Source: a virus
DNA: 23,089 nucleotides
IMG/VR virus record: IMGVR_UViG_3300044511_000393
Span: 1 to 23,089 of that record
Strand: one strand, 5' to 3'
Shown here: positions 1,999-21,977 of the stretch, in pieces
Position numbering within the stretch: the first letter of the stretch is position 1
Layout: every line of letters starts with the position of its first letter
Position numbers and translations under genes: made by a program
Notes under the pieces: model-generated
Database searches by the model: none
The model's input: the letters and a program-made list of their open reading frames with translations, nothing else
Told to the model about the DNA's origin: nothing

Positions 1999-2007
1999 TG
2001 TTTTTTG

Positions 2008-2080
2008 TCAAGCATGCAGGATTCGAACCTGCGTCTCAGCGTCCCGAACGCCGTGCTAAATCAACCTCAGCTAATGCTTG
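2008..2080 (-). tRNA. tRNA-Pro(CGG)
   Basis: The acceptor CAAGCAT pairs with ATGCTTG. The C1-G72 pair is the hallmark of bacterial tRNA-Pro. The anticodon loop TTCGGGA gives CGG with G37. The T-arm GCAGG-TTCGAAT-CCTGC is canonical and the discriminator is A. CCA is not encoded. Confidence 0.9.
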
Positions 2081-2089
2081 ATTATTTTG

Positions 2090-2163
2090 TCAGTGACCTC
2101 GGACTCGAACCGAGAACCTCAAGCTTCCAGAGCTCGCCGTCTACCAATTGACATTAGTCACTG
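2090..2163 (-). tRNA. tRNA-Pro-like, anticodon TGG, aberrant loop
   Basis: The acceptor CAGTGAC/GTCACTG has the proline-like C1-G72 pair and the T-arm CTCGG-TTCGAGT-CCGAG is canonical. The anticodon stem CGAGC/GCTTG encloses TCTGGAA: by position the anticodon is TGG, but position 33 is C instead of the near-universal U and position 37 is A instead of G. The D-arm also has one extra base. Its 5' end overlaps the last 10 nt of the upstream CDS. Decoding identity is uncertain. Confidence 0.7.
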
Positions 2164-2417
2164 AATTTTAAAACCTTATCAACCCATTCCTTAGGAAAGT
2201 CTTCGTATAATTCAAACTTACGAAGTAAGCCCCGTTCTATATCCTCTTTCCACATGGTCACCGTTAGGTTTAGCATGCGCTTACCATGATAGTAACCATT
2301 TTGATTTGAAATCATTTCCCCAAATGACTCTGAGTAATAAAGCTCCAAGAGCATTTGCTCGCTAAAATCCAGTTCATGTTCCCAATCTTTAGAGAACAGG
2401 CGATAAATTTCAGCCAT
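2154..2417 (-). CDS. Hypothetical protein, 87 aa
   Basis: A small acidic protein beginning MAEIYRLFSKDWEHELDFSE, rich in aromatic residues (W, Y, F), with no signal peptide, cysteines or membrane segment. No family is recognised. The start at 2417 lacks an obvious ribosome site and lies 25 nt after the GIY-YIG gene stop, so it is probably translated from that transcript. The stop codon lies inside the following tRNA (10-nt overlap), so RNase P cleavage of the tRNA would remove the end of this message. Confidence 0.6.
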   Translation of the reverse strand: MAEIYRLFSKDWEHELDFSEQMLLELYYSESFGEMISNQNGYYHGKRMLNLTVTMWKEDIERGLLRKFELYEDFPKEWVDKVLKFSD

Positions 2418-2442
2418 GTTACGAAACTTTCTTGTTACGACT

Positions 2443-3336
2443 TTAGGCCTGCTTGGCGCTGTGACATAAACAACCTCCTTTATTTTTTATTGTTTGACGA
2501 CCTTTTCTTGCGGATCGTTGTCTTATCTTTAATAAACAATCATCCGATCCGCAAAATTTCACTCGACTTTTATTTTTTAGTGGAGTAAATTCAACTTCAC
2601 ATATTGGACAAAATGTTGATTCACGTTGAATAAAAACAGGTCGTTGAAATTTTCTGCCTTTAACCCATCCATCTGGAATAGATTCTGTTTTCATAATTCT
2701 AACACTTTCTAAGGTGTCACAATTATAAATCCACATTTTACCAAATTGCGAGTTCTTTTCGCCATCATGAGGCCGTCTTTCTGCTAAAGTCGCCTTCATT
2801 TTTCGTTTGTATTCATCAGAGTGCTTTCGTCCATAAAAGATACCATGAGGATATTTTTCTCTGCTTTTTTCTCTAGCTTTTACAAAAGCTTTGCGTGTCC
2901 TCTCTTTAAAAGCCTTATCATATTCTGGATCTTCTTCTCTTTTACGCTTTACGCCAGCAGCTCCAGAAGCTGCCCAAATAACAAAAGTATGACGGCGTCT
3001 TTCAACGCCTTCTGGAGAATTAACACCAGTCCAATGTTCACCGCCGGTTGCTAAATTCATACACTGCGTATCTTTTAATAAGTCTTCATTAACAAGTTCT
3101 TTTTCTCGATTTGATAATGATTTCCGATCAGGTAAATATTCTAATATTTCAACTTGATGGTTTTCCTTTCCATGTTTATTGATCGAATGCCAGAGTCGTA
3201 TTCCACTTCCTAAATATCCATCATTCAAGTCATTTGTAGAATGCATTCCTATGTAATATCTACCAGTAATCAAACAAGTTGTCTTGTAGATGTAATGGTA
3301 CTTGCGCTTATCTGCACGTTGTTTCTTGGTTTCCAT
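2443..3336 (-). CDS. GIY-YIG homing endonuclease
   Basis: 297 aa. The GIY-YIG nuclease occupies about residues 13-100: YIYKTT (GIY position), then YYIGMHST (YIG motif), and SNREKELV carrying the expected catalytic Glu region. It is followed by a NUMOD3-like DNA-binding repeat (HSDEYKRKMKATL near 190) and a C-terminal zinc-finger-like segment (CPIC and later CGSDDC). This is the architecture of T4 Seg-like free-standing homing enzymes. It sits between tRNA-Pro genes. The message has a late promoter 28 nt upstream and a GGAG ribosome site. It probably targets a related phage tRNA region, which is inference. Confidence 0.88.
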   Translation of the reverse strand: METKKQRADKRKYHYIYKTTCLITGRYYIGMHSTNDLNDGYLGSGIRLWHSINKHGKENHQVEILEYLPDRKSLSNREKELVNEDLLKDTQCMNLATGGEHWTGVNSPEGVERRRHTFVIWAASGAAGVKRKREEDPEYDKAFKERTRKAFVKAREKSREKYPHGIFYGRKHSDEYKRKMKATLAERRPHDGEKNSQFGKMWIYNCDTLESVRIMKTESIPDGWVKGRKFQRPVFIQRESTFCPICEVEFTPLKNKSRVKFCGSDDCLLKIRQRSARKGRQTIKNKGGCLCHSAKQA

Positions 3337-3363
3337 TTTGTATCTCCATGATTAACATGAAGA

Positions 3364-3371
3364 TATTTATA
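3364..3371 (-). promoter_or_regulatory. T4-type late promoter
   Basis: An exact TATAAATA on the minus strand, 28 nt before the GIY-YIG start at 3336. Confidence 0.75.
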
Positions 3372-3397
3372 GAAACCAGAAGCACTTTTATTCACCG

Positions 3398-3471
3398 TCG
3401 GGGTGACAGTATTCGAAACTGCGACATTTCGGTCCCAAACCGAACGCTCTACCAGGCTGAGCTACACCCCG
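3398..3471 (-). tRNA. tRNA-Pro(TGG)
   Basis: The acceptor CGGGGTG/CACCCCG has C1-G72. The anticodon stem TTCGG/CCGAA holds loop TTTGGGA, anticodon TGG with G37. The D-arm is canonical and the T-loop is TTCGAAT. Discriminator A; CCA not encoded. Confidence 0.92.
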
Positions 3472-3481
3472 AAAATTTTTG

Positions 3482-3555
3482 TCTCCGAGACAGGATTTGA
3501 ACCTGCATAAGCTTGCTCCCAAAGCAAGTGGTCGACCAAATTGACCCACTCGGAG
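3482..3555 (-). tRNA. tRNA-Pro(TGG), second copy
   Basis: The acceptor CTCCGAG/CTCGGAG has C1-G72. The anticodon stem CTTGC/GCAAG holds loop TTTGGGA (TGG). The T-loop TTCAAAT is canonical. It shares the anticodon with its neighbour at 3398 but the stems differ strongly, so it is not a recent duplicate. An inverted-repeat element ends 5 nt before its 5' end. CCA not encoded. Confidence 0.92.
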
Positions 3556-3560
3556 AAATA

Positions 3561-3624
3561 ATCAAACAAAAAGTAGGAAACGGACTAGTCTACCCAAAAG
3601 ATAACCGTTACCAAGCGGTTTGAT
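3561..3624 (-). repeat. tRNA-leader element A
   Basis: A 64-nt segment bounded by a perfect 7-bp inverted repeat (ATCAAAC/GTTTGAT on the minus strand). Its core is AACCG-N10-GTTATCT (3599-3620) and it has a T-run before the right arm. It ends exactly 5 nt (TATTT) before the tRNA at 3555. Elements B and C share this plan. Confidence 0.6.
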
Positions 3625-3631
3625 TTAAACC

Positions 3632-3793
3632 TTACGCGTACATCAACCATTCTTGAGAAATTTGAATGATGTACCACTCTTGAAATGTTTCATCAAAAGT
3701 CCTACACATAATCTTTCCATCATTGGAAACTCCTAAAACTTCCATTTCAGGACCACCATTTACAGAACGAACAATTGAACCTCTTACAAACAT
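3632..3793 (-). CDS. DUF2158 (YodC-like) small protein
   Basis: 53 aa, starting MFVRGSIVRSVNGGPEMEVL. This matches the DUF2158 pattern: G-x-[IV]-V-x-x-x-x-G-G-P-x-M-x-V near the N-terminus, then a conserved Cys (IMCRTF) and a final hydrophobic Leu segment. The family is a small beta-barrel-like domain of unknown function found in bacteria and phages. The open frame extends 11 codons further upstream, but the ATG at 3793 is preferred because a GAGAGG ribosome site lies just before it. Confidence 0.75.
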   Translation of the reverse strand: MFVRGSIVRSVNGGPEMEVLGVSNDGKIMCRTFDETFQEWYIIQISQEWLMYA

Positions 3794-3826
3794 TTCAACC
3801 TCTCTAAAATTAATGTAGATGTGCAA

Positions 3827-4099
3827 ACTTTACAGGAGCCGACTACTTAGAAATTAGTGGGTGATCAACTCCCACCTCATCCTTCTTAACAATTCCAGCC
3901 TTTACCAAACCACTGCCTCGAGAGCGCTCGATATTTACCAGGACCGGTTTTAGTGTTTGCTGGGTTGCTTCATAGCTTACCAGTTTGCTTACGCTGCACG
4001 ATGATCTACGTCACCGACGGTTACCTTACGATAACCTATTTTTAAGTTGAGACATCAAATAACGTATGACGCTCGCCTTAAATGTTCTTTCGTCCCATG
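3827..4099 (-). other. GC-rich structured stretch without a supported gene
   Basis: About 270 nt between tRNA-Asn and the DUF2158 gene. Hairpins on the transcribed strand include GTGGG/CCCAC (3857-3861 with 3871-3875) and GGTTA/TAACC (4019-4023 with 4032-4036). One frame, ending DHPLISK before a TAG at about 3850, is open for about 48 codons and protein-like, but lacks a start codon and is closed upstream by TGA. It may be a non-coding RNA, or a gene relic. Confidence 0.35.
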
Positions 4100-4172
4100 C
4101 TGGCCCGGAGGGGTTCGAACCCCCGACCTAGTGATTAACAATCACCCGCTCTACCGACTGAGCTACAAGCCA
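4100..4172 (-). tRNA. tRNA-Asn(GTT)
   Basis: The acceptor TGGCTTG/CGGGCCA has U1-A72 and discriminator G, as in bacterial tRNA-Asn. The anticodon loop TTGTTAA gives GTT. The D-arm and T-arm (TTCGAAC loop) are canonical. CCA not encoded. Confidence 0.92.
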
Positions 4173-4182
4173 ATAATTTTTG

Positions 4183-4265
4183 CTCCGGAGGTCCGACTCG
4201 AACGGACAGTTGCCTTTCGGCGGAGCATTAACAGTGCCCTGGGGTTACCGTTTTCCTACTCCGGA
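4183..4265 (-). tRNA. Class II tRNA with Asn anticodon (GTT)
   Basis: The acceptor TCCGGAG/CTCCGGA has U1-A72 and G73. The anticodon stem GGGCA/TGCTC holds loop CTGTTAA, anticodon GTT. Unlike any normal tRNA-Asn it has a 15-nt variable arm with a GCC-GAAA-GGC hairpin, and its D-stem is only about 2 bp. The T-arm GTCCG-TTCGAGT-CGGAC is canonical. It may be charged with Asn (anticodon, G73) or behave like a Ser-type tRNA (long arm, G73). CCA not encoded. Confidence 0.75.
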
Positions 4266-4270
4266 AAATC

Positions 4271-4336
4271 GTGAAACAAAAAAGATTTAACGAGTTTTTT
4301 CTTTCCAATAAGATAATCGTTAAAAAGCGGTTTCAC
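4271..4336 (-). repeat. tRNA-leader element B
   Basis: 66 nt bounded by GTGAAAC/GTTTCAC, with core AACCG-N10-ATTATCT (4311-4332), an internal 8-bp pairing (TTTAACGA with TCGTTAAA) and a T-run. It starts 3 nt after the tRNA at 4340 and ends 5 nt before the tRNA at 4265. Same plan as elements A and C. Confidence 0.65.
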
Positions 4337-4339
4337 TTG

Positions 4340-4414
4340 TACCGTCGAGGAGATTTGAACTCCTACATAACTACGTTCTTAGCGTAGCGCCTCTGCCAAT
4401 TGGGCTACGACGGC
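4340..4414 (-). tRNA. Class I tRNA, anticodon AAG (nominally Leu)
   Basis: The acceptor GCCGTCG/CGACGGT has a G1-U72 wobble and A73. The anticodon stem CTACG/CGTAG holds CTAAGAA, anticodon AAG. The variable loop has 5 nt, whereas bacterial tRNA-Leu is class II, and A34 is rare outside Arg. The D-arm and the TTCAAAT T-loop are good. Amino-acid identity is uncertain. Confidence 0.75.
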
Positions 4415-4420
4415 AATTTT

Positions 4421-4567
4421 TTAATCTGAACTGTTGTACCAGTTCCAAAACTCCTCCTGAGTTTCAAACTCAAAATCAGGTTCTCCACCTTCAGGTGTCA
4501 TGTCCACGTAAAATGAATCATCTTCATCATCTATCCAAGCTTCAGCCATCGAATTATAACAAATCAT
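4421..4567 (-). CDS. Small acidic protein, 48 aa
   Basis: Starts MICYNSMAEAWIDDEDDSFY and ends FWNWYNSSD. Very acidic (DDEDD, EGGEPDFEFE, QEEF) with several aromatic residues. No family is recognised. Strong acidity is common in phage proteins that mimic DNA or bind host factors, but nothing here proves that. The ATG follows the stop of the upstream 58-aa gene by 1 nt (TAAAATG), so the two form a translationally linked pair under the promoter at 4776. Confidence 0.6.
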   Translation of the reverse strand: MICYNSMAEAWIDDEDDSFYVDMTPEGGEPDFEFETQEEFWNWYNSSD

Positions 4568-4568
4568 T

Positions 4569-4745
4569 TTAGTAAATCCTCAGTTCAGAGCCGTTAACTT
4601 CAACATTACCAGGCCAGCTTTCTTCCATCCATGAATTGTAATCTTCATCAGTCCTTGATTGAAGAGTCATTACATCTAACATTTGTAAATTAGCTCCTTG
4701 AGCTTGAAGACTAAGAAGCGTGTCTAACAGTTGTTGAGCGTTCAT
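4569..4745 (-). CDS. Small hypothetical protein, 58 aa
   Basis: Starts MNAQQLLDTLLSLQAQGANL and ends VEVNGSELRIY. A Gln/Leu-rich helical N-terminus precedes an acidic C-terminal half. No known family. An in-frame stop lies shortly upstream, so ATG 4745 is the only start; its ribosome site (AAGG) is unusually close. First gene of a two-gene unit behind a consensus promoter. Confidence 0.6.
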   Translation of the reverse strand: MNAQQLLDTLLSLQAQGANLQMLDVMTLQSRTDEDYNSWMEESWPGNVEVNGSELRIY

Positions 4746-4775
4746 CCTTTTTCATCATTTTGATTTGATGGAATA

Positions 4776-4803
4776 ATTATAACACAAAAATCAAAAAGTA
4801 CAA
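4776..4803 (-). promoter_or_regulatory. Sigma70-type promoter, TTGTAC-16-TATAAT
   Basis: TATAAT at 4776-4781 and TTGTAC at 4798-4803 on the minus strand, 16-nt spacer. It lies between tRNA-Gly and the 58-aa gene, giving a leader of about 24 nt. Confidence 0.7.
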
Positions 4804-4811
4804 CTTTATTT

Positions 4812-4888
4812 TGGAGCGGGTAGACGGTCTCGAACCGACAACCTCCGACTTGGAAGGACGGCGCTCTGGCCAATTGAGCTATACCCGC
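4812..4888 (-). tRNA. tRNA-Gly(TCC), CCA encoded
   Basis: The acceptor GCGGGTA/TACCCGC is followed by discriminator U, typical of tRNA-Gly, and an encoded CCA. The anticodon loop CTTCCAA gives TCC. The anticodon stem contains a U30-U40 mismatch. The T-arm has a canonical TTCGAGA loop. Confidence 0.9.
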
Positions 4889-4893
4889 AAAGT

Positions 4894-4965
4894 GTGAAAC
4901 AAAATAAGCGAAAAACGGGGTTTTTCTCAGTAAAAGTAAGATAACCATTTTTCTTTCGGTTTCAC
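4894..4965 (-). repeat. tRNA-leader element C
   Basis: 72 nt bounded by GTGAAAC/GTTTCAC, with core AACCG-N11-GTTATCT (4939-4961) and a T-rich stretch before the right arm. It begins 2 nt after the tRNA at 4968 and ends 5 nt before tRNA-Gly at 4888, like elements A and B. Confidence 0.65.
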
Positions 4966-4967
4966 TG

Positions 4968-5043
4968 TACTCTCGGTCGGATTCGAACCCACACATAAAG
5001 AAGGGCTTAAACCTTCCGCCTCTGCCAATTGGGCTACGAGAGT
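4968..5043 (-). tRNA. Class I tRNA, anticodon TAA (nominally Leu)
   Basis: The acceptor ACTCTCG/CGAGAGT and A73 are clear. The anticodon stem GAAGG/CCTTC holds TTTAAGC, anticodon TAA. The variable loop is short, unlike class II bacterial tRNA-Leu. Its D-arm matches that of the AAG tRNA at 4340, so the two form a related pair. One T-stem pair is a G-G mismatch. CCA not encoded. Confidence 0.78.
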
Positions 5044-5050
5044 AAAAATT

Positions 5051-5135
5051 TGGTGGATAAGGTAGGATTCGAACCTACTCAGCCGAAGCGCCTGATTTAC
5101 AGTCAGGTGAGACTCTCCCACGTCCCCGCTTATCC
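5051..5135 (-). tRNA. tRNA-Tyr(GTA), CCA encoded
   Basis: Class II. The acceptor GGATAAG/CTTATCC is followed by A and an encoded CCA. The anticodon stem CCTGA/TCAGG holds CTGTAAA, anticodon GTA. A long variable arm and canonical T-loop TTCGAAT complete a normal tRNA-Tyr. Confidence 0.93.
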
Positions 5136-5139
5136 AAAT

Positions 5140-5230
5140 TGGTGGGTCTCGGCTAGAATCGAACTGCTTGCCACGAGGGAACCGGGTTACAGCCGGCTGA
5201 CGGGACCACCCATCCTTACTTTCGAAACCC
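5140..5230 (-). tRNA. tRNA-Tyr-like (GTA), irregular T-arm, CCA encoded
   Basis: The acceptor GGGTTTC/GAGACCC with A and encoded CCA. The anticodon stem GCCGG/CCGGT holds CTGTAAC, anticodon GTA. The variable arm is long, as in tRNA-Tyr. The T-stem is irregular: GCAG faces CTAGC with a bulged A, and the D-arm is hard to fold. It may be a decaying copy of a tRNA-Tyr or an unusual functional one. Confidence 0.65.
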
Positions 5231-5235
5231 AAATT

Positions 5236-5384
5236 TAGGTGGAGGTTACGGATCCTCCAGTTGTCTTGTTGTCGGATGTTAACACAACAACTCCTCAACC
5301 GCTTTCTTTCATAGATGGCGATGGAGCTTCCTCCTTATCGAAGGAGTCCTTACGGGTCGCCAGCTCCAGAAAATTCAAAAACAA
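5236..5384 (-). ncRNA. Structured RNA, possible pseudoknotted leader of the tRNA operon
   Basis: About 150 nt directly behind a consensus promoter (5385-5413) and in front of the Tyr-type tRNAs. It holds a perfect 6-bp hairpin (5331-5346), GGAGG/CCTCC (5241-5258), TTGTTG/CAACAA (5266-5290), and two long pairings in pseudoknot order: 5316-5321 with 5357-5362 and 5322-5328 with 5362-5368. One frame ends PSPSMKESG but has no ATG start. No known RNA family is recognised. Confidence 0.5.
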
Positions 5385-5413
5385 ATTCTAACACAAAAAT
5401 CCAAAATGTACAA
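5385..5413 (-). promoter_or_regulatory. Sigma70-type promoter, TTGTAC-17-TAGAAT
   Basis: Minus-strand TTGTAC (5408-5413), 17-nt spacer, TAGAAT (5385-5390). It sits in the gap after tRNA-Ser(GGA) and would transcribe the structured RNA and the tRNAs below it. Confidence 0.65.
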
Positions 5414-5419
5414 TAAATT

Positions 5420-5511
5420 TGGCGGAGAAAGTGGGATTCGAACCCACGGAACCATATTTCAGGTCCTCTACCTTTCCAGGGTAGCACGATAGTCCACTCT
5501 GTCATTTCTCC
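5420..5511 (-). tRNA. tRNA-Ser(GGA), CCA encoded
   Basis: Class II. The acceptor GGAGAAA/TTTCTCC is followed by discriminator G and an encoded CCA. The anticodon stem CTACC/GGTAG holds CTGGAAA, anticodon GGA. It has a long variable arm and canonical T-arm GTGGG-TTCGAAT-CCCAC. Confidence 0.93.
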
Positions 5512-5514
5512 AAT

Positions 5515-5643
5515 TGGTTGTGACCTCAGGATTCGAACCTGGTCTTCGCCCTTATGCGTGAGATAACCATCCACAAACGGTTTCTTTCGAAACAAGAGGC
5601 GCAGACGACTTTTTTCGCGTACTAACCAATACATCAAGTCACA
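5515..5643 (-). tRNA. tRNA-like gene with about 50-nt insertion, CCA encoded
   Basis: The ends are tRNA-like: acceptor TGTGACT/GGTCACA, A73, encoded CCA, T-loop TTCGAAT on a CCAGG/CCTGA stem (one mismatch), and a GTA/TAC D-stem. The total of 129 nt is about 50 more than a class I tRNA. The extra part contains a GTTTC-GAAA-GAAAC hairpin and a copy of the AACCG-N10-GTTATCT core of the leader elements (5561-5582). A possible anticodon loop CTCACGC (CAC) is weakly supported. It may be interrupted or inactive. Confidence 0.6.
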
Positions 5644-5650
5644 GTAACCG

Positions 5651-5722
5651 TAACCGTCCCGGGAATCGAACCCGGTTTGTACACCTTGTAAAGATGTCGC
5701 CTCTCCAACCGACCCGACGATT
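5651..5722 (-). tRNA. tRNA-Val(TAC)
   Basis: The acceptor AATCGTC/GACGGTT and A73. The anticodon stem ACATC/GGTGT holds TTTACAA, anticodon TAC. The T-arm CCGGG-TTCGATT-CCCGG is perfect. The first pair A-U and the bases at positions 8-9 are atypical for Val. CCA not encoded. Confidence 0.85.
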
Positions 5723-5725
5723 AAA

Positions 5726-5800
5726 TGGTAGGTTCGGGGAATTTCGAAATCCCGACATTTGCCTTGTAAGGGCAACGCTCTGCCTCTGAGCTACGAACCT
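5726..5800 (-). tRNA. tRNA-Val(TAC), second copy, CCA encoded
   Basis: The acceptor AGGTTCG/CGAACCT, A73 and encoded CCA. The anticodon stem TTGCC/GGCAA holds CTTACAA, anticodon TAC. The D-arm is canonical; the T-stem ends in a U-U mismatch beside the loop. First tRNA of the cluster in the direction of transcription. Confidence 0.9.
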
Positions 5801-7980: not shown

Positions 7981-8277
7981 TTAGGAAAGCCTCACAGTCA
8001 ATTTGCTTAAGTTTTTATTTATGACTTCAATGTCATCAGCTGTCGCTTCTCTAACAATTTCAAGACAAGTTGCTGCTGTTGATCCACTTATAACTCTAGC
8101 GCCTGTCTTACCATTAATTACAGAGACTCTACAGGCATCTTGGTTAATCACGAGCGTTGGCTTAATATAGACATAAAGCTCATTAGTTTCAGGGTCTGGG
8201 ATAGGATAAAACGCATCGTTGAAAAGCGTTAACCCAGCCGGTTTAATTTTAGCTACGTACCATTCTGTTGATTTCAT
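7981..8277 (-). CDS. Hypothetical protein, 98 aa
   Basis: Starts MKSTEWYVAKIKPAGLTLFN. A mixed alpha/beta pattern with two cysteines (DACRV and ATCLE) and a beta-rich first half. No family is recognised. Its start overlaps the end of the HAD gene by 29 nt in another frame, a larger overlap than the ATGA junctions around it. Confidence 0.65.
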   Translation of the reverse strand: MKSTEWYVAKIKPAGLTLFNDAFYPIPDPETNELYVYIKPTLVINQDACRVSVINGKTGARVISGSTAATCLEIVREATADDIEVINKNLSKLTVRLS

Positions 8278-8803
8278 GAACTTTACTTAAAAGTGTTTTT
8301 CTTTTTTCAACTAAAAGTTGATTAGTTTCTTGTTTTGAATGCCCTAAAAATTTCATAATTTCAAAGAAATTTTCTAGAGAAAGTCCGGCGTTATAATCAA
8401 CTTTGACATAACCTACGTATTCTTCTACGATATCAGGTTCAACAAACGCGTCGTCTACGTAACAAAAATATGAATATTGGCCGCAATTTAACTTAAGCCA
8501 TTTTTTAATTTCTTCGCCACGCGTTTCAGCAACTGGCGTTTTCCACTGATCACCTTCCAATATCGTTGGATTTAAACCGTTGATTTTAAAAATATCGATA
8601 AATTGATTACGTGAAAAAGTATGGCGCCATGAAGACGCAATTACAAGCTTAGCGTAAGTAAATTCAAGCGCGTGATTTAACAGAGCGACCGCAACAGGGT
8701 CAAAACACTTGAAGGTTCCTGAACCTCCAAGATTGTAGTCAAGCAGAGCAGCTCTACCTGAAATTAGAACACCGTCAATATCAAGTATAATTATTCTGTT
8801 CAT
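8249..8803 (-). CDS. HAD phosphatase of the Swiss Army Knife RNA-repair type
   Basis: 184 aa. Motif I is ILDIDGVLIS, with D8 as nucleophile and D10 as acid/base. Motif II is IASSWRHT (about 57-63), the SSWR form typical of the HAD_SAK families associated with RNA repair. A later YVDDAF (about 118) supplies the metal-binding acids. Known members are thought to remove terminal or cyclic phosphates from broken RNA ends; the substrate here is not shown. It overlaps the SspB gene by ATGA and its own 3' end overlaps the next ORF. Other RNA-repair families lie at 16493-21942. Confidence 0.82.
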   Translation of the reverse strand: MNRIIILDIDGVLISGRAALLDYNLGGSGTFKCFDPVAVALLNHALEFTYAKLVIASSWRHTFSRNQFIDIFKINGLNPTILEGDQWKTPVAETRGEEIKKWLKLNCGQYSYFCYVDDAFVEPDIVEEYVGYVKVDYNAGLSLENFFEIMKFLGHSKQETNQLLVEKRKTLLSKVHEINRMVRS

Positions 8804-9974: not shown

Positions 9975-10004
9975 ATTATACTAAGAAAAATTGGAGATGT
10001 ACAC
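9975..10004 (-). promoter_or_regulatory. Sigma70-type promoter of the SspB operon, GTGTAC-18-TATAAT
   Basis: Minus-strand GTGTAC (9999-10004), 18 nt, TATAAT (9975-9980). It lies between the tmRNA terminator and ATG 9968, leaving almost no 5' leader. Confidence 0.6.
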
Positions 10005-10007
10005 ACA

Positions 10008-10033
10008 AAAATGGGGAAGATTAAATCTTCCCC
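10008..10033 (-). terminator. Terminator of the tmRNA gene
   Basis: A near-perfect stem, GGGGAAGATT with AATCTTCCCC (10013-10033), followed on the minus strand by ATTTTTG. It ends the tmRNA transcript just before the SspB-operon promoter. Confidence 0.85.
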
Positions 10034-10036
10034 ATT

Positions 10037-10334
10037 CGGTTCATTCTGTTGCTAGGCTGAACAGCCCCGGTGGATTATGCTGCGAGAGCATAATCTCCAT
10101 AAAATGCGTCATTGCTTGCATTTATAAGTTTTTCGCTGCTTAGGGCAGTCGACTATCCCGTTGTAAACATTCCTACTAATGACCACGTCGAAACTTTGTC
10201 CAGCCCAAATTTATTTTAAGCTATGTGGACTGGGCGGGTTCTGCCCCCGCGTCCGCGACCCCTTTCAGTCAGTCTTTCAAAACTTCCTGTTTACACAACG
10301 ATAAAATCAGTAATGTCTTCTAAAGAAAACATTG
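10037..10334 (-). ncRNA. ssrA: Circularly permuted (two-piece) tmRNA
   Basis: In transcription order the acceptor half comes first: T-stem GCGGG/CCCGC with a 7-nt loop GGCAGAA, then acceptor strand CCAGTCC (10227-10233) and A73 (10226). After a 19-nt linker the coding half begins with GGGCTGGACAAAGTTTCGACG (first base 10206), matching the tmRNA 5' consensus. GGGCTGG pairs with CCAGTCC including G3-U70, the alanine identity pair. GTTTAC (10163-10168) can pair with GTAAAC (10289-10294) as a P2-like helix, and GGG/CCC with CTGC/GCAG can form a pseudoknot upstream of the tag. The tag reads from 10119 to a TAA at 10075. CCA is not encoded. The halves are presumably separated by processing, as in alphaproteobacteria and cyanobacteria. 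Outer ends are approximate. The T-loop is not the usual TTCRANY. Confidence 0.92.
10075..10119 (-). other. tmRNA tag reading frame, (A)ASNDAFYGDYALAA
   Basis: The resume codon GCA at 10117-10119 is preceded by TATAAAT, keeping the U and A at -5 and -4 that matter in E. coli. The frame encodes ASNDAFYGDYALAA and ends at TAA; with the charged alanine the tag is 15 residues. It carries A-x-N-D-x-x-Y (SspB type) and terminal ALAA (ClpX type). The stop codon sits in a perfect 8-bp hairpin (10073-10095), like helix 5 of known tmRNAs. The exact resume codon is inferred. Confidence 0.88.
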
Positions 10335-10340
10335 TCAATT

Positions 10341-10346
10341 ATTATA
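10341..10346 (-). promoter_or_regulatory. -10 box of the tmRNA gene
   Basis: TATAAT on the minus strand, about 100 nt before the end of the acceptor half. No good -35 match is visible at the expected distance, so a TTTG directly upstream may help, or an activator is needed. Confidence 0.5.
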
Positions 10347-17235: not shown

Positions 17236-17877
17236 TTAGAGCCCATTTGGCACGATTTCAGAATGCATCCAGTGCGTATCAGTTTGAACGTGACTAGCAC
17301 GAACAAACTTAGCTACTGACTGAGCAAAATCCTTATAGTGAAACCCCTTTTTCATTCTGACCACGTAACCTTCCTGTGTTGTTGTATCCAGTCGATATTG
17401 AATTTGACGAATTTGGTCTTCGTCAAATTCACCTTGCCAAAGAATATGTACAGACGGAATTTCGAGAAGTGAAAACCATTCTTGTGTTTCACCCCAGCTT
17501 AAACAAAAATTTTTTTCATTCCAAATTGAAAACCCACGAAATGGTATTACCAAGTTCTCATATCTAATCGAGTGTTGAGCAAATAAGTTTTCTCCACAAA
17601 CTCTCCAACCTTCAGGAAGGTCATAACAACGTTCTTGCCACCAACGCTTTACCCAATCACGAGAAGGGTGATTTGCACTGTCAAGTGACCTGGCATGTAG
17701 ATTGCCATTAGTATAAAGTGAAGTGTTCTCACCATCCATTTTTTCTGTTATGATGACATGTTGACCTTCAAAATGTTCAACATTCTTGAGCACTTTGTCA
17801 TCATCAGAACGACCTAGCGACCAGGGAAGATGATAGGTGCGGGGGTATTTGACTTTACTCATTGAAGTAACACTCAT
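17236..17877 (-). CDS. RNA ligase, covalent nucleotidyltransferase family
   Basis: 213 aa. Motif I is TEKMDGEN with K46 as the AMP-accepting lysine. LHARSLD (Ia), VCGENLFAQHSIRY (III), FRGFSIW (IIIa), QEGYVVR (IV) and AKFVRASHV (V) follow in order. The short size and the N-terminal YPRTYHLPWSLG fit the Rnl family (RNA_ligase) that accompanies SAK-type RNA repair genes. It joins RNA ends, most likely cut tRNAs. The ATG at 17862 is an alternative start. Own promoter at 17893; followed by the Sm-like gene. Confidence 0.9.
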   Translation of the reverse strand: MSVTSMSKVKYPRTYHLPWSLGRSDDDKVLKNVEHFEGQHVIITEKMDGENTSLYTNGNLHARSLDSANHPSRDWVKRWWQERCYDLPEGWRVCGENLFAQHSIRYENLVIPFRGFSIWNEKNFCLSWGETQEWFSLLEIPSVHILWQGEFDEDQIRQIQYRLDTTTQEGYVVRMKKGFHYKDFAQSVAKFVRASHVQTDTHWMHSEIVPNGL

Positions 17878-18251: not shown

Positions 18252-18587
18252 TTAAGAAATTAAATAACGTTCAATAACGCCGCGCATTCTGGTTGAACCA
18301 ACAGGATTTGCTGAGTGAACTTTTATTATAGGCGGTATCCACAAACCAAATGTTTTTTGTTCTGCCAACCATAAACAAATGTCATAACCTGTCCACTCTC
18401 TACCATCAGGAGAGAATGACGCAAGGTCATGATCTAAAGAAAGAAAATCATATTTGTATTTCTGTAAAAACTCTACTGCAGTAAAGTAATCATATACAAC
18501 CGTCCAGTTCCCACAAATCTTATAGTAATCTGTAGGAACATCTCTAGTATCATCAACAAATAGCCCGTAAAGATTAACTATGGTCAC
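18252..18587 (-). CDS. cREC: cyclic-phosphate-processing receiver-like domain
   Basis: 111 aa from a GTG at 18587. FVDDTRDVP (10-18) is the N-terminal acidic motif, LSLDHDL (49-55) the central Asp-His-Asp motif, and VHSANPVGSTRM (90-101) the conserved C-terminal segment of the cREC family linked to RNA repair, thought to process cyclic phosphates at broken RNA ends. The frame is open 20 codons further to 18647, but cREC proteins start close to the FVDD motif. It overlaps the 72-aa gene, which in turn joins the 2H gene. Confidence 0.85.
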   Translation of the reverse strand: MTIVNLYGLFVDDTRDVPTDYYKICGNWTVVYDYFTAVEFLQKYKYDFLSLDHDLASFSPDGREWTGYDICLWLAEQKTFGLWIPPIIKVHSANPVGSTRMRGVIERYLIS

Positions 18588-18792
18588 TGTTTGTGATTTT
18601 CTCTTCAAGCCTATATATTTCAATGGCTGATAGAACCGCATCAACACGAGTTTTTAGTCGACGCAATTGATATTCATGACTATCAATTGATTGAAAATCA
18701 TTCCATTCTCCATTTTCTATAGCATCGATATCATAACCATGTGCAACTTTGTTCGCAAGTTCTTGAATATCTTCTAAAAGTGTGTTGATCAT
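18574..18792 (-). CDS. Hypothetical helical protein, 72 aa
   Basis: Starts MINTLLEDIQELANKVAHGY. Helical and acidic. It lies between the 2H phosphoesterase (TAATG overlap) and the cREC gene (14-nt overlap), so the three are translated together. No family is recognised; a helper for one of these enzymes is possible. Confidence 0.68.
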   Translation of the reverse strand: MINTLLEDIQELANKVAHGYDIDAIENGEWNDFQSIDSHEYQLRRLKTRVDAVLSAIEIYRLEEKITNSDHS

Positions 18793-19250
18793 TAATTTTC
18801 CTCTGTTTTAGCAATTGTAATGTGGAAAGTAAATTCTCGGCCTTTAGCATCTTCAGATTTTAAGCCAAGTTCCTTTCTGATTTCATTCAAGCGATGAGAG
18901 CGAACTCGTACCATAAAAAACTTGTCACGAAAACCAAGCTCACGAGTAGCTTCGATTTTGTGTTGATACTCTAAAATAATTCGCTCGCCATTATACTTGC
19001 CCCAAAGCTCTTTATTAAGAGGCTCCTCGCCGCGAATGACGCTGACGTGAGACCCCCAGGCTGGTTGTAAGTAACGTCTCTTGTACCCATTGGCTTCCCA
19101 ATGCCACCAGAATTTTTCAAGCCACCAACGATAGTAGTTGGCAATTTCTGGACAGGTATTAACAACAGCCCACCAAACTGTACGGTTTTTCATCTTTCCA
19201 CGATTTGGATCGTAAATTAACGTACCGGTTGTTTTGAACCAAGTAGACAT
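18792..19250 (-). CDS. 2H phosphoesterase of the SAK RNA-repair type
   Basis: 152 aa. Two H-x-[ST] motifs define the 2H superfamily: SHVSVIRG (H68, S70) and FHITIAK (H143, T145). The Trp-rich segment between 25 and 52 and the PAWGSHVSVIRGEEP context fit the 2H-SAK branch. Known 2H enzymes open 2',3'-cyclic phosphates on RNA or related nucleotides. First gene of the unit 2H, 72-aa protein, cREC, behind a GTTTAC/TATAAT promoter. Start ATG 19250 preferred over the GTG one codon before. Confidence 0.82.
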   Translation of the reverse strand: MSTWFKTTGTLIYDPNRGKMKNRTVWWAVVNTCPEIANYYRWWLEKFWWHWEANGYKRRYLQPAWGSHVSVIRGEEPLNKELWGKYNGERIILEYQHKIEATRELGFRDKFFMVRVRSHRLNEIRKELGLKSEDAKGREFTFHITIAKTEEN

Positions 19251-19280
19251 CACTATTCACCTAAAGTTAGCTGTTGTTAA

Positions 19281-20922: not shown

Positions 20923-21942
20923 TTAATTGTGTTCAATATCGTAAAAGAGTCTAAGCCAGTCGACTAACCATTCGTAAAACTGACGTTTAAGATTATCGTC
21001 CTTAAATGGTAAGTTAGTAATTTGCTGCGCGTTCGTAACACGTTCATTTAGCTCCTCAAATTCTGCCTTAACCCTGTCGAATGGAATTTTTCCATTTTTG
21101 ATATCTAGAAGATGCTTGGCGCTTTCACGTGGGAAATTAATTTTACCTACCGTTAAAATTTCTAGCGCTTCTTCAGTGATGCGGATGGCGTGTGAAAGCG
21201 CCTTCCAGTCAACTTCATCACCCTGTGATTTACGAACTCGCTCTCCATATTTATCACGAAGCCCCTTCATTGCGTTTAAAAAATGCCCAACTTTTGTCGT
21301 AAGAGCATAAGTGCGATTATTAACAGACAGCGCTGGCATCTTATCGTAACCGGTTTTTGTGTCTTTTATTTCTGTCATGAAGATAAATTCTGACTGCAAC
21401 TTTGTCAGCTTTGATTCAATTGACCCAAGCGTGTTAGAAACATCCAGTAATCCCTCTGTAAGTTCATGTTCAATGAGCTCAATAATTGCTTCAACCGAGT
21501 TTAACCTGCTGGCGCGAGCACCATAAAGCTCTGCTTGGCTCATAGCGTACTGAATCATCTTTGTGATATCATCCGTTAAGAAGTCATTAATTAACTCATG
21601 ACAGAATTCAACAATTCGAGCATCATAACAATTAACAAACTGTTTGTTTTCGTTATTGCTAAACGCTATAACAAAAGCAGATTCAATTGCGTATGTTTGC
21701 CCTTCAAAGAAGTGTTCCGCAAAAGTTTTGAGCGGAACAAATTCATATTCCGACTCATCGGCGGGCATGATGTCATCGTCGCTCACACCTTCAGGCCGCT
21801 TCTTAATGATAGCTGAACGTCGTTCAAGAAGAACTTGATTGAGGTCAGGGATGTAAATTACCTTAAAGTCACGGTCTGATGTTGGCGTGGAAGTACCAAA
21901 CAGGTGGGAGCCACTAACAATTTCTGCAAGTAAATTTTTCAT
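20923..21942 (-). CDS. RlaP-type nucleotidyltransferase (RNA-repair Pol beta family)
   Basis: 339 aa from ATG 21942; a TTG five codons earlier is less likely. GSHLFGTSTPTSDRDFKVIY (11-30) is the nucleotidyltransferase motif G-S-x10-D-x-D with D23 and D25 as metal ligands. The remaining helical part fits the large single-domain COG3541/RlaP group, named for RNA-repair operons and sometimes found in phages. It may add nucleotides to, or tag, damaged RNA ends; the true substrate is unknown. Followed by the FmdB-like gene; own promoter at 21978. Confidence 0.82.
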   Translation of the reverse strand: MKNLLAEIVSGSHLFGTSTPTSDRDFKVIYIPDLNQVLLERRSAIIKKRPEGVSDDDIMPADESEYEFVPLKTFAEHFFEGQTYAIESAFVIAFSNNENKQFVNCYDARIVEFCHELINDFLTDDITKMIQYAMSQAELYGARASRLNSVEAIIELIEHELTEGLLDVSNTLGSIESKLTKLQSEFIFMTEIKDTKTGYDKMPALSVNNRTYALTTKVGHFLNAMKGLRDKYGERVRKSQGDEVDWKALSHAIRITEEALEILTVGKINFPRESAKHLLDIKNGKIPFDRVKAEFEELNERVTNAQQITNLPFKDDNLKRQFYEWLVDWLRLFYDIEHN

Positions 21943-21977
21943 TTGAATTCTATCCAAGTAATAATTCTCTTGAACAA

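Follow-up and report, generated by a model that had tools for sequence, protein, structure and literature searches.

The 23,089-nt stretch of viral DNA analyzed here (the window) carries on its minus strand, at 10007 to 10346, a circularly permuted, two-piece tmRNA (ssrA) locus that comprises the precursor with its 5' leader and terminator, and we regard the identification of this gene type as virtually certain. The Rfam model tmRNA_permuted (RF04321) matches positions 10284 to 10075 over the full model length (97.1 bits against a cut-off of 47, E = 4.7e-18), and the alpha_tmRNA model (RF01849) matches 10335 to 10034 on the same strand (67.9 bits, cut-off 50, E = 7.2e-17), scores that are far above chance expectation. 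ARAGORN independently called a permuted tmRNA at 9984 to 10315 with the tag ASNDAFYGDYALAA. The halves follow one another in the permuted order, with the acceptor half leading through a spacer into the coding half. An earlier note, made from the letters alone, had proposed a permuted phage tmRNA without giving its strand and had named covariance models as a check; both models score above their cut-offs, and the proposal is upheld by Rfam, by ARAGORN and by the neighboring jumbo-phage genes. The phage-borne permuted tmRNA and the lack of SmpB thus stand from that reading, while its suggestions of novelty and of an anomalous T-loop do not.

All features described below lie on the minus strand. 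The acceptor half (10226 to 10300) contains the 5' strand of P2, an extra hairpin, the T-arm, the 3' strand of the acceptor stem and A73. Its 5' end is placed by the P2 pairing: the mature half probably starts near 10300, at the onset of an 11-bp bulged P2 helix, a correction to the earlier note. The acceptor stem is formed by GGGCUGG at the start of the coding half (10200 to 10206) and CCAGUCC (10227 to 10233), which pair at 7/7 positions including G3-U70, followed by A73 at 10226; CCA is not encoded, and the spacer does not begin with it. The T-arm, GCGGG-GGCAGAA-CCCGC (10234 to 10250), has a 5-bp stem and a 7-nt loop by Rfam alignment and pairing. Between the halves lies the 19-nt segment CAUAGCUUAAAAUAAAUUU (10207 to 10225), whose removal is expected by analogy with known two-piece tmRNAs. 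The conserved 5' tRNA-like motif GUUUCGACG aligns to the Rfam consensus at 10186 to 10194, where the signature GTTTCGACG is present. The P2 strands, CGUUG(UG)UAAACA (10288 to 10300) and UGUUUACAACG (10159 to 10169), contain an 8-bp Watson-Crick core, UGUAAACA/UGUUUACA, that is reached in 1.6% of shuffles, and the Rfam alignment places P2 differently. This core alone is significant; a general test for a duplex between the 5' flank and the coding half was not (27% of shuffles match), and the whole region folded as one strand showed no significant stability (z = -1.6). An additional hairpin of 24 nt, whose internal loop is a tandem G-A, lies between P2 and the T-arm (10266 to 10289, z = -3.1 against shuffles) and shares its first two bases with the end of the 5' strand of P2.

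In the coding half, Rfam and ARAGORN both place the tag reading frame ASNDAFYGDYALAA at 10075 to 10119; the frame is intact, has a resume codon and a hydrophobic C-terminus, and ends ALAA before a UAA stop, with a 9-bp hairpin predicted by folding (10073 to 10095) enclosing the frame end and stop codon. A weak PK1 candidate upstream of the tag, a GGG/CCC-type stem with CUGC/GCAG, was read by eye at 10134 to 10159; the alpha consensus has a stronger PK1 and also a stronger P2. At 10039 to 10067 we place a 3' H-type pseudoknot, GGGC..GUUCA..GCCU..AGCAACAGAA..UGAAC, on the basis of homology and compensatory changes: the GCAACAGAA motif and the pairing are present in the window copy, which taken alone is not significant (139/1000 shuffles equal it), and a homologous pseudoknot with compensatory changes occurs in 23 of the 27 unique viral copies that carry the motif, among the matches listed. 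Sequence and folding identify an intrinsic terminator at 10007 to 10033. All of the elements named in the earlier note could be located: the 7-bp acceptor pairing with G3-U70 and A73, the T-stem with its 7-nt loop, the 5' signature and the ALAA-ending frame in a stop-codon hairpin are as it described them, the terminator lies just past the end it had given, and the interval over which it predicted processing is exactly the 19-nt spacer.

Over shared stretches the window is 99.98% identical to viral records of 197,099 and 42,148 bases that carry the same tmRNA, and the three sequenced copies of this gene are nearly identical. Genes for tail sheath, portal, baseplate and head-tail adaptor proteins and for a DNA polymerase are present in the 197-kb record. 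The tail sheath and baseplate proteins of this record most resemble those of Xanthomonas phage XacN1 and of the Stenotrophomonas phages RAS14 and CM1, followed by those of PA5oct, the Rak2-like phages and Phosso, a Sinorhizobium phage. The window contig is part of the genome of a jumbo myovirus, and its ssrA is a complete gene of alphaproteobacterial type in a phage of the XacN1/Rak2-like group. DNA similarity searches of the tmRNA and of the ligase region against known phages gave no useful match.

An array of 13 tRNA genes lies at 2007 to 5800 of the window; four of them are for tRNA-Pro, and tRNA-Asn and tRNA-Val have two each. The gene ends show that 9/13 lack an encoded CCA, and a tmRNA without CCA therefore fits this phage. 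The tRNA genes and the tmRNA are accompanied by a likely RNA-repair gene set (8249 to 8803, 17236 to 17877, 18252 to 18647, 18792 to 19253 and 20923 to 21957) that comprises HAD and 2H "Swiss Army Knife" domains, an RNA ligase, a cyclic-phosphate receiver domain and an RlaP-like nucleotidyltransferase, and that may guard the tRNAs and tmRNA from host nucleases.

The earlier remark that no SmpB gene is visible holds and extends to the relatives: SmpB was not found in the 197-kb and 42-kb records or in any of 11 relatives (phages and viral records), 8 of which are deposited isolate genomes; the records searched may be incomplete. Since the phage and its 11 relatives lack SmpB, the host protein is the likely partner, and the mechanism most likely relies on it.

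Two-piece tmRNAs in phages have been described before. A two-piece tmRNA was reported for phage Melnitz in a study where this form made up 53 of 133 unique phage tmRNA structures (PMC9004378), huge phages with tmRNAs and SmpB are known (PMC7162821), and 79 sequences from phages are catalogued in a 2025 tmRNA database (PMC11915505). A scan of IMG/VR with one T-arm pattern returned at least 119 viral stretches, ∼80 of which ARAGORN confirms as permuted tmRNAs among the matches listed. The novelty implied for a phage two-piece tmRNA is thus contradicted both by publication (PMC9004378) and by abundance in IMG/VR, and the window tmRNA is a new example of a viral gene type already known. In six viral permuted tmRNAs (L091, L107, L111, L116, L120 and L027) the tags called by ARAGORN are of unusual length or otherwise odd, for example AKKSTTFASILPVKVERVSLVQEALAASA and ANDNALSNVTFVDFSAPVTAVNEDFALAA.

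The matches listed yielded 28 unique viral tRNA-like domains, in every copy of which 12/12 pairs form, a percentage biased by copies that were partly selected by pattern and ARAGORN and by a script that kept the best-pairing candidate. Within this set G3-U70 is invariant, and pairs 4-69, 5-68 and 6-67 and the first T-stem pair vary on both sides; the scan pattern does not dictate that the acceptor positions vary freely while their pairing is retained. CCA is encoded in 26/28 of these domains and is missing from the window copy. The T-loop GGCAGAA, previously called non-canonical, conforms to the GGCRGNA form found in all 28 domains, a form that the scan pattern itself demanded and that is thus shown to be common rather than universal; the alpha_tmRNA consensus is GGCgGUA. 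GGCAGAA being usual in this lineage, we dropped the T-loop as a source of novelty. T-loops of the GGCRGNA form, rather than TTCGANT, also occur in some one-piece tmRNAs and so are not exclusive to RF01849. Exact genomic matches to the 21-base T-arm GGACGCGGGGGCAGAACCCGC were limited to four one-piece tmRNAs, from two bacterial MAGs, one member of the Saccharimonadia and one Gemmatimonadales MAG, and to one tRNA-like stretch of Streptomyces. Three of the sequences sharing it (L180, L182 and L184) are one-piece tmRNAs of bacterial MAGs, one of them from the Saccharimonadia. With exact matches in such mixed bacteria, the T-arm was dropped as a pointer to the host. A longer pattern gave zero matches.

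Among 19 related jumbo-phage records, permuted tmRNAs score above cut-off in XacN1, Phosso and an IMG/VR record (G009); records that are fragments may not cover the gene, so lack of a match need not mean absence. XacN1 has two copies, in its terminal repeats, and these and the G009 gene are of beta type (107.8 and 97.7 bits, respectively, cut-off 84). The Phosso gene is of alpha type (108 bits) and has a long spacer that folds better than 100/100 shuffles (z = -2.7) and matches no other Rfam family above cut-off. RF00023 matches in the relatives fell below cut-off and were set aside as mostly tRNAs or pieces of permuted genes by appearance. The tmRNA gene is unannotated in both isolate records, and the word tmRNA is absent from the XacN1 paper (PMC5852040). 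We note that the XacN1 gene lies at ∼37,200 to 37,600 of AP018399 (L155, 1471 to 1891), with its terminal-repeat copy at 356,026 to 356,325 and the tag ANANTFDYALAA, and that a GOLLD RNA (227 bits) occurs ∼1 kb downstream of it. The Phosso tmRNA lies on the minus strand of L179 at 2554 to 3243, with a spacer of ∼400 nt or more, and that genome also has a GOLLD RNA away from the tmRNA.

In a tail-sheath tree, some joins of which may be long-branch artifacts according to a tool warning, the window phage (alpha type), G009 (beta type) and a 343-kb record (no tmRNA) form one supported clade, and XacN1 (beta type) is sister to RAS14 (none). These differing types and absences among related phages suggest repeated gain, loss or replacement of tmRNA across the jumbo group, which is the simplest reading of the sequences. 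Xanthomonas itself is expected to have a one-piece tmRNA. More speculatively, the group may repeatedly gain, lose and swap tmRNAs across bacterial classes, and a foreign two-piece type, such as the beta form in a Xanthomonas phage, may run on host SmpB while its own tag resets protein quality control during infection. Through the present work a jumbo-phage lineage gains a well-preserved example of a two-piece tmRNA; the modestly new part lies outside the window, in permuted tmRNAs that differ in bacterial type and are unannotated in several public relatives. With alpha-type, beta-type or no tmRNA and no SmpB in any member tested, the group constitutes a natural experiment on the reasons for which phages carry ssrA and on whether a two-piece tmRNA of foreign type can function with SmpB from a host whose own tmRNA is one-piece, a question that is testable because XacN1 is cultured.

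We propose that the window locus is expressed as a single transcript ending at the terminator, from which host tRNA-processing enzymes would remove both the 19-nt spacer and the surplus at the ends, so that an acceptor half (∼75 nt) and a coding half (∼165 to 175 nt) would stay joined by the acceptor stem and P2. CCA would be added after processing, as it is not encoded. On the model of the tmRNA family, alanine would be charged via G3-U70, and the charged RNA with host SmpB and EF-Tu would enter ribosomes stalled on broken mRNA, where the tag ASNDAFYGDYALAA would be appended, the ribosomes recycled and the unfinished protein marked for proteolysis. The benefit would most likely be that ribosome rescue is maintained while infection harms host mRNA and tRNA. 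We consider this overall account, an alpha-type permuted ssrA processed in the host and acting in rescue with host SmpB, highly probable given the covariance models, ARAGORN, the full anatomy, the intact ALAA tag, the phage context, the covariation of the tRNA-like domain and 3' pseudoknot, and the lack of a phage SmpB; the unencoded CCA, the weaker P2 and PK1 and the three near-identical copies count against it. By analogy, ordinary trans-translation with host SmpB is the probable activity of this RNA.

Other roles can be envisaged for the same gene. The tag might steer selective degradation of host proteins or supply amino acids for the phage, as proposed for Melnitz (PMC9004378), and it is indeed the phage's own and ends ALAA, but ordinary rescue explains the anatomy equally, leaving this role unlikely in our view. 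No mechanism is known that would confer selectivity on such tag-directed proteolysis. The RNA could instead be a decoy that, by titrating either host SmpB or the enzyme that charges alanine, inhibits trans-translation in the host. A decoy would accord with the phage lacking SmpB and has precedent in the form of mycobacteriophage DS6A that consists of the tRNA-like domain only, a similar molecule inhibiting tmRNA in E. coli (PMC11915505, PMC4131195); the window gene, however, retains the tag frame, stop-codon hairpin and 3' pseudoknot, none of which a decoy needs, and we judge a decoy function improbable.

That the gene is a functionless bacterial ssrA captured passively, for example as a relic of imprecise excision, would lead one to expect the patchy distribution and differing types seen in related jumbo phages, as occasional capture and loss would produce. 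This origin is nevertheless very unlikely for a gene that is intact, compact and equipped with its own terminator, that has covarying copies common in viral contigs, and for which a narrow search with the exact T-arm pattern found no close bacterial copy. Ordinary rescue with host SmpB thus remains our preferred reading.

The window tmRNA resembles the two-piece tmRNA of alphaproteobacteria (RF01849, within RF04321) in the order of its halves, GGCRGNA T-loop, UCGAC motif, ALAA tag end and GCAACAGAA 3' pseudoknot, and differs from it in lacking an encoded CCA, in its very short 19-nt spacer, in the extra 24-nt hairpin of the acceptor half and in having GTTTCGACG where most have GGATCGACG. The one-piece tmRNAs of the mycobacteriophage Bxz1 group and Bacillus phage G (PMC4131195) share with that of the window the property of being phage-encoded ssrA genes. 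Unlike it, they are not permuted. Like the tmRNAs of Melnitz, a Methylophilales phage, and of pelagimyophages (PMC9004378), the window tmRNA is phage-borne, permuted and of alpha type, but its phage belongs to another, jumbo lineage (XacN1/Rak2-like), and the window has no Rfam match to the glutamine riboswitch that is a point of comparison with Melnitz. XacN1 and Phosso, which belong with the window phage to one wide jumbo group, likewise have a permuted tmRNA and no SmpB, with the difference that the XacN1 gene is of beta type and that the Phosso gene, although of alpha type, has the far longer spacer.
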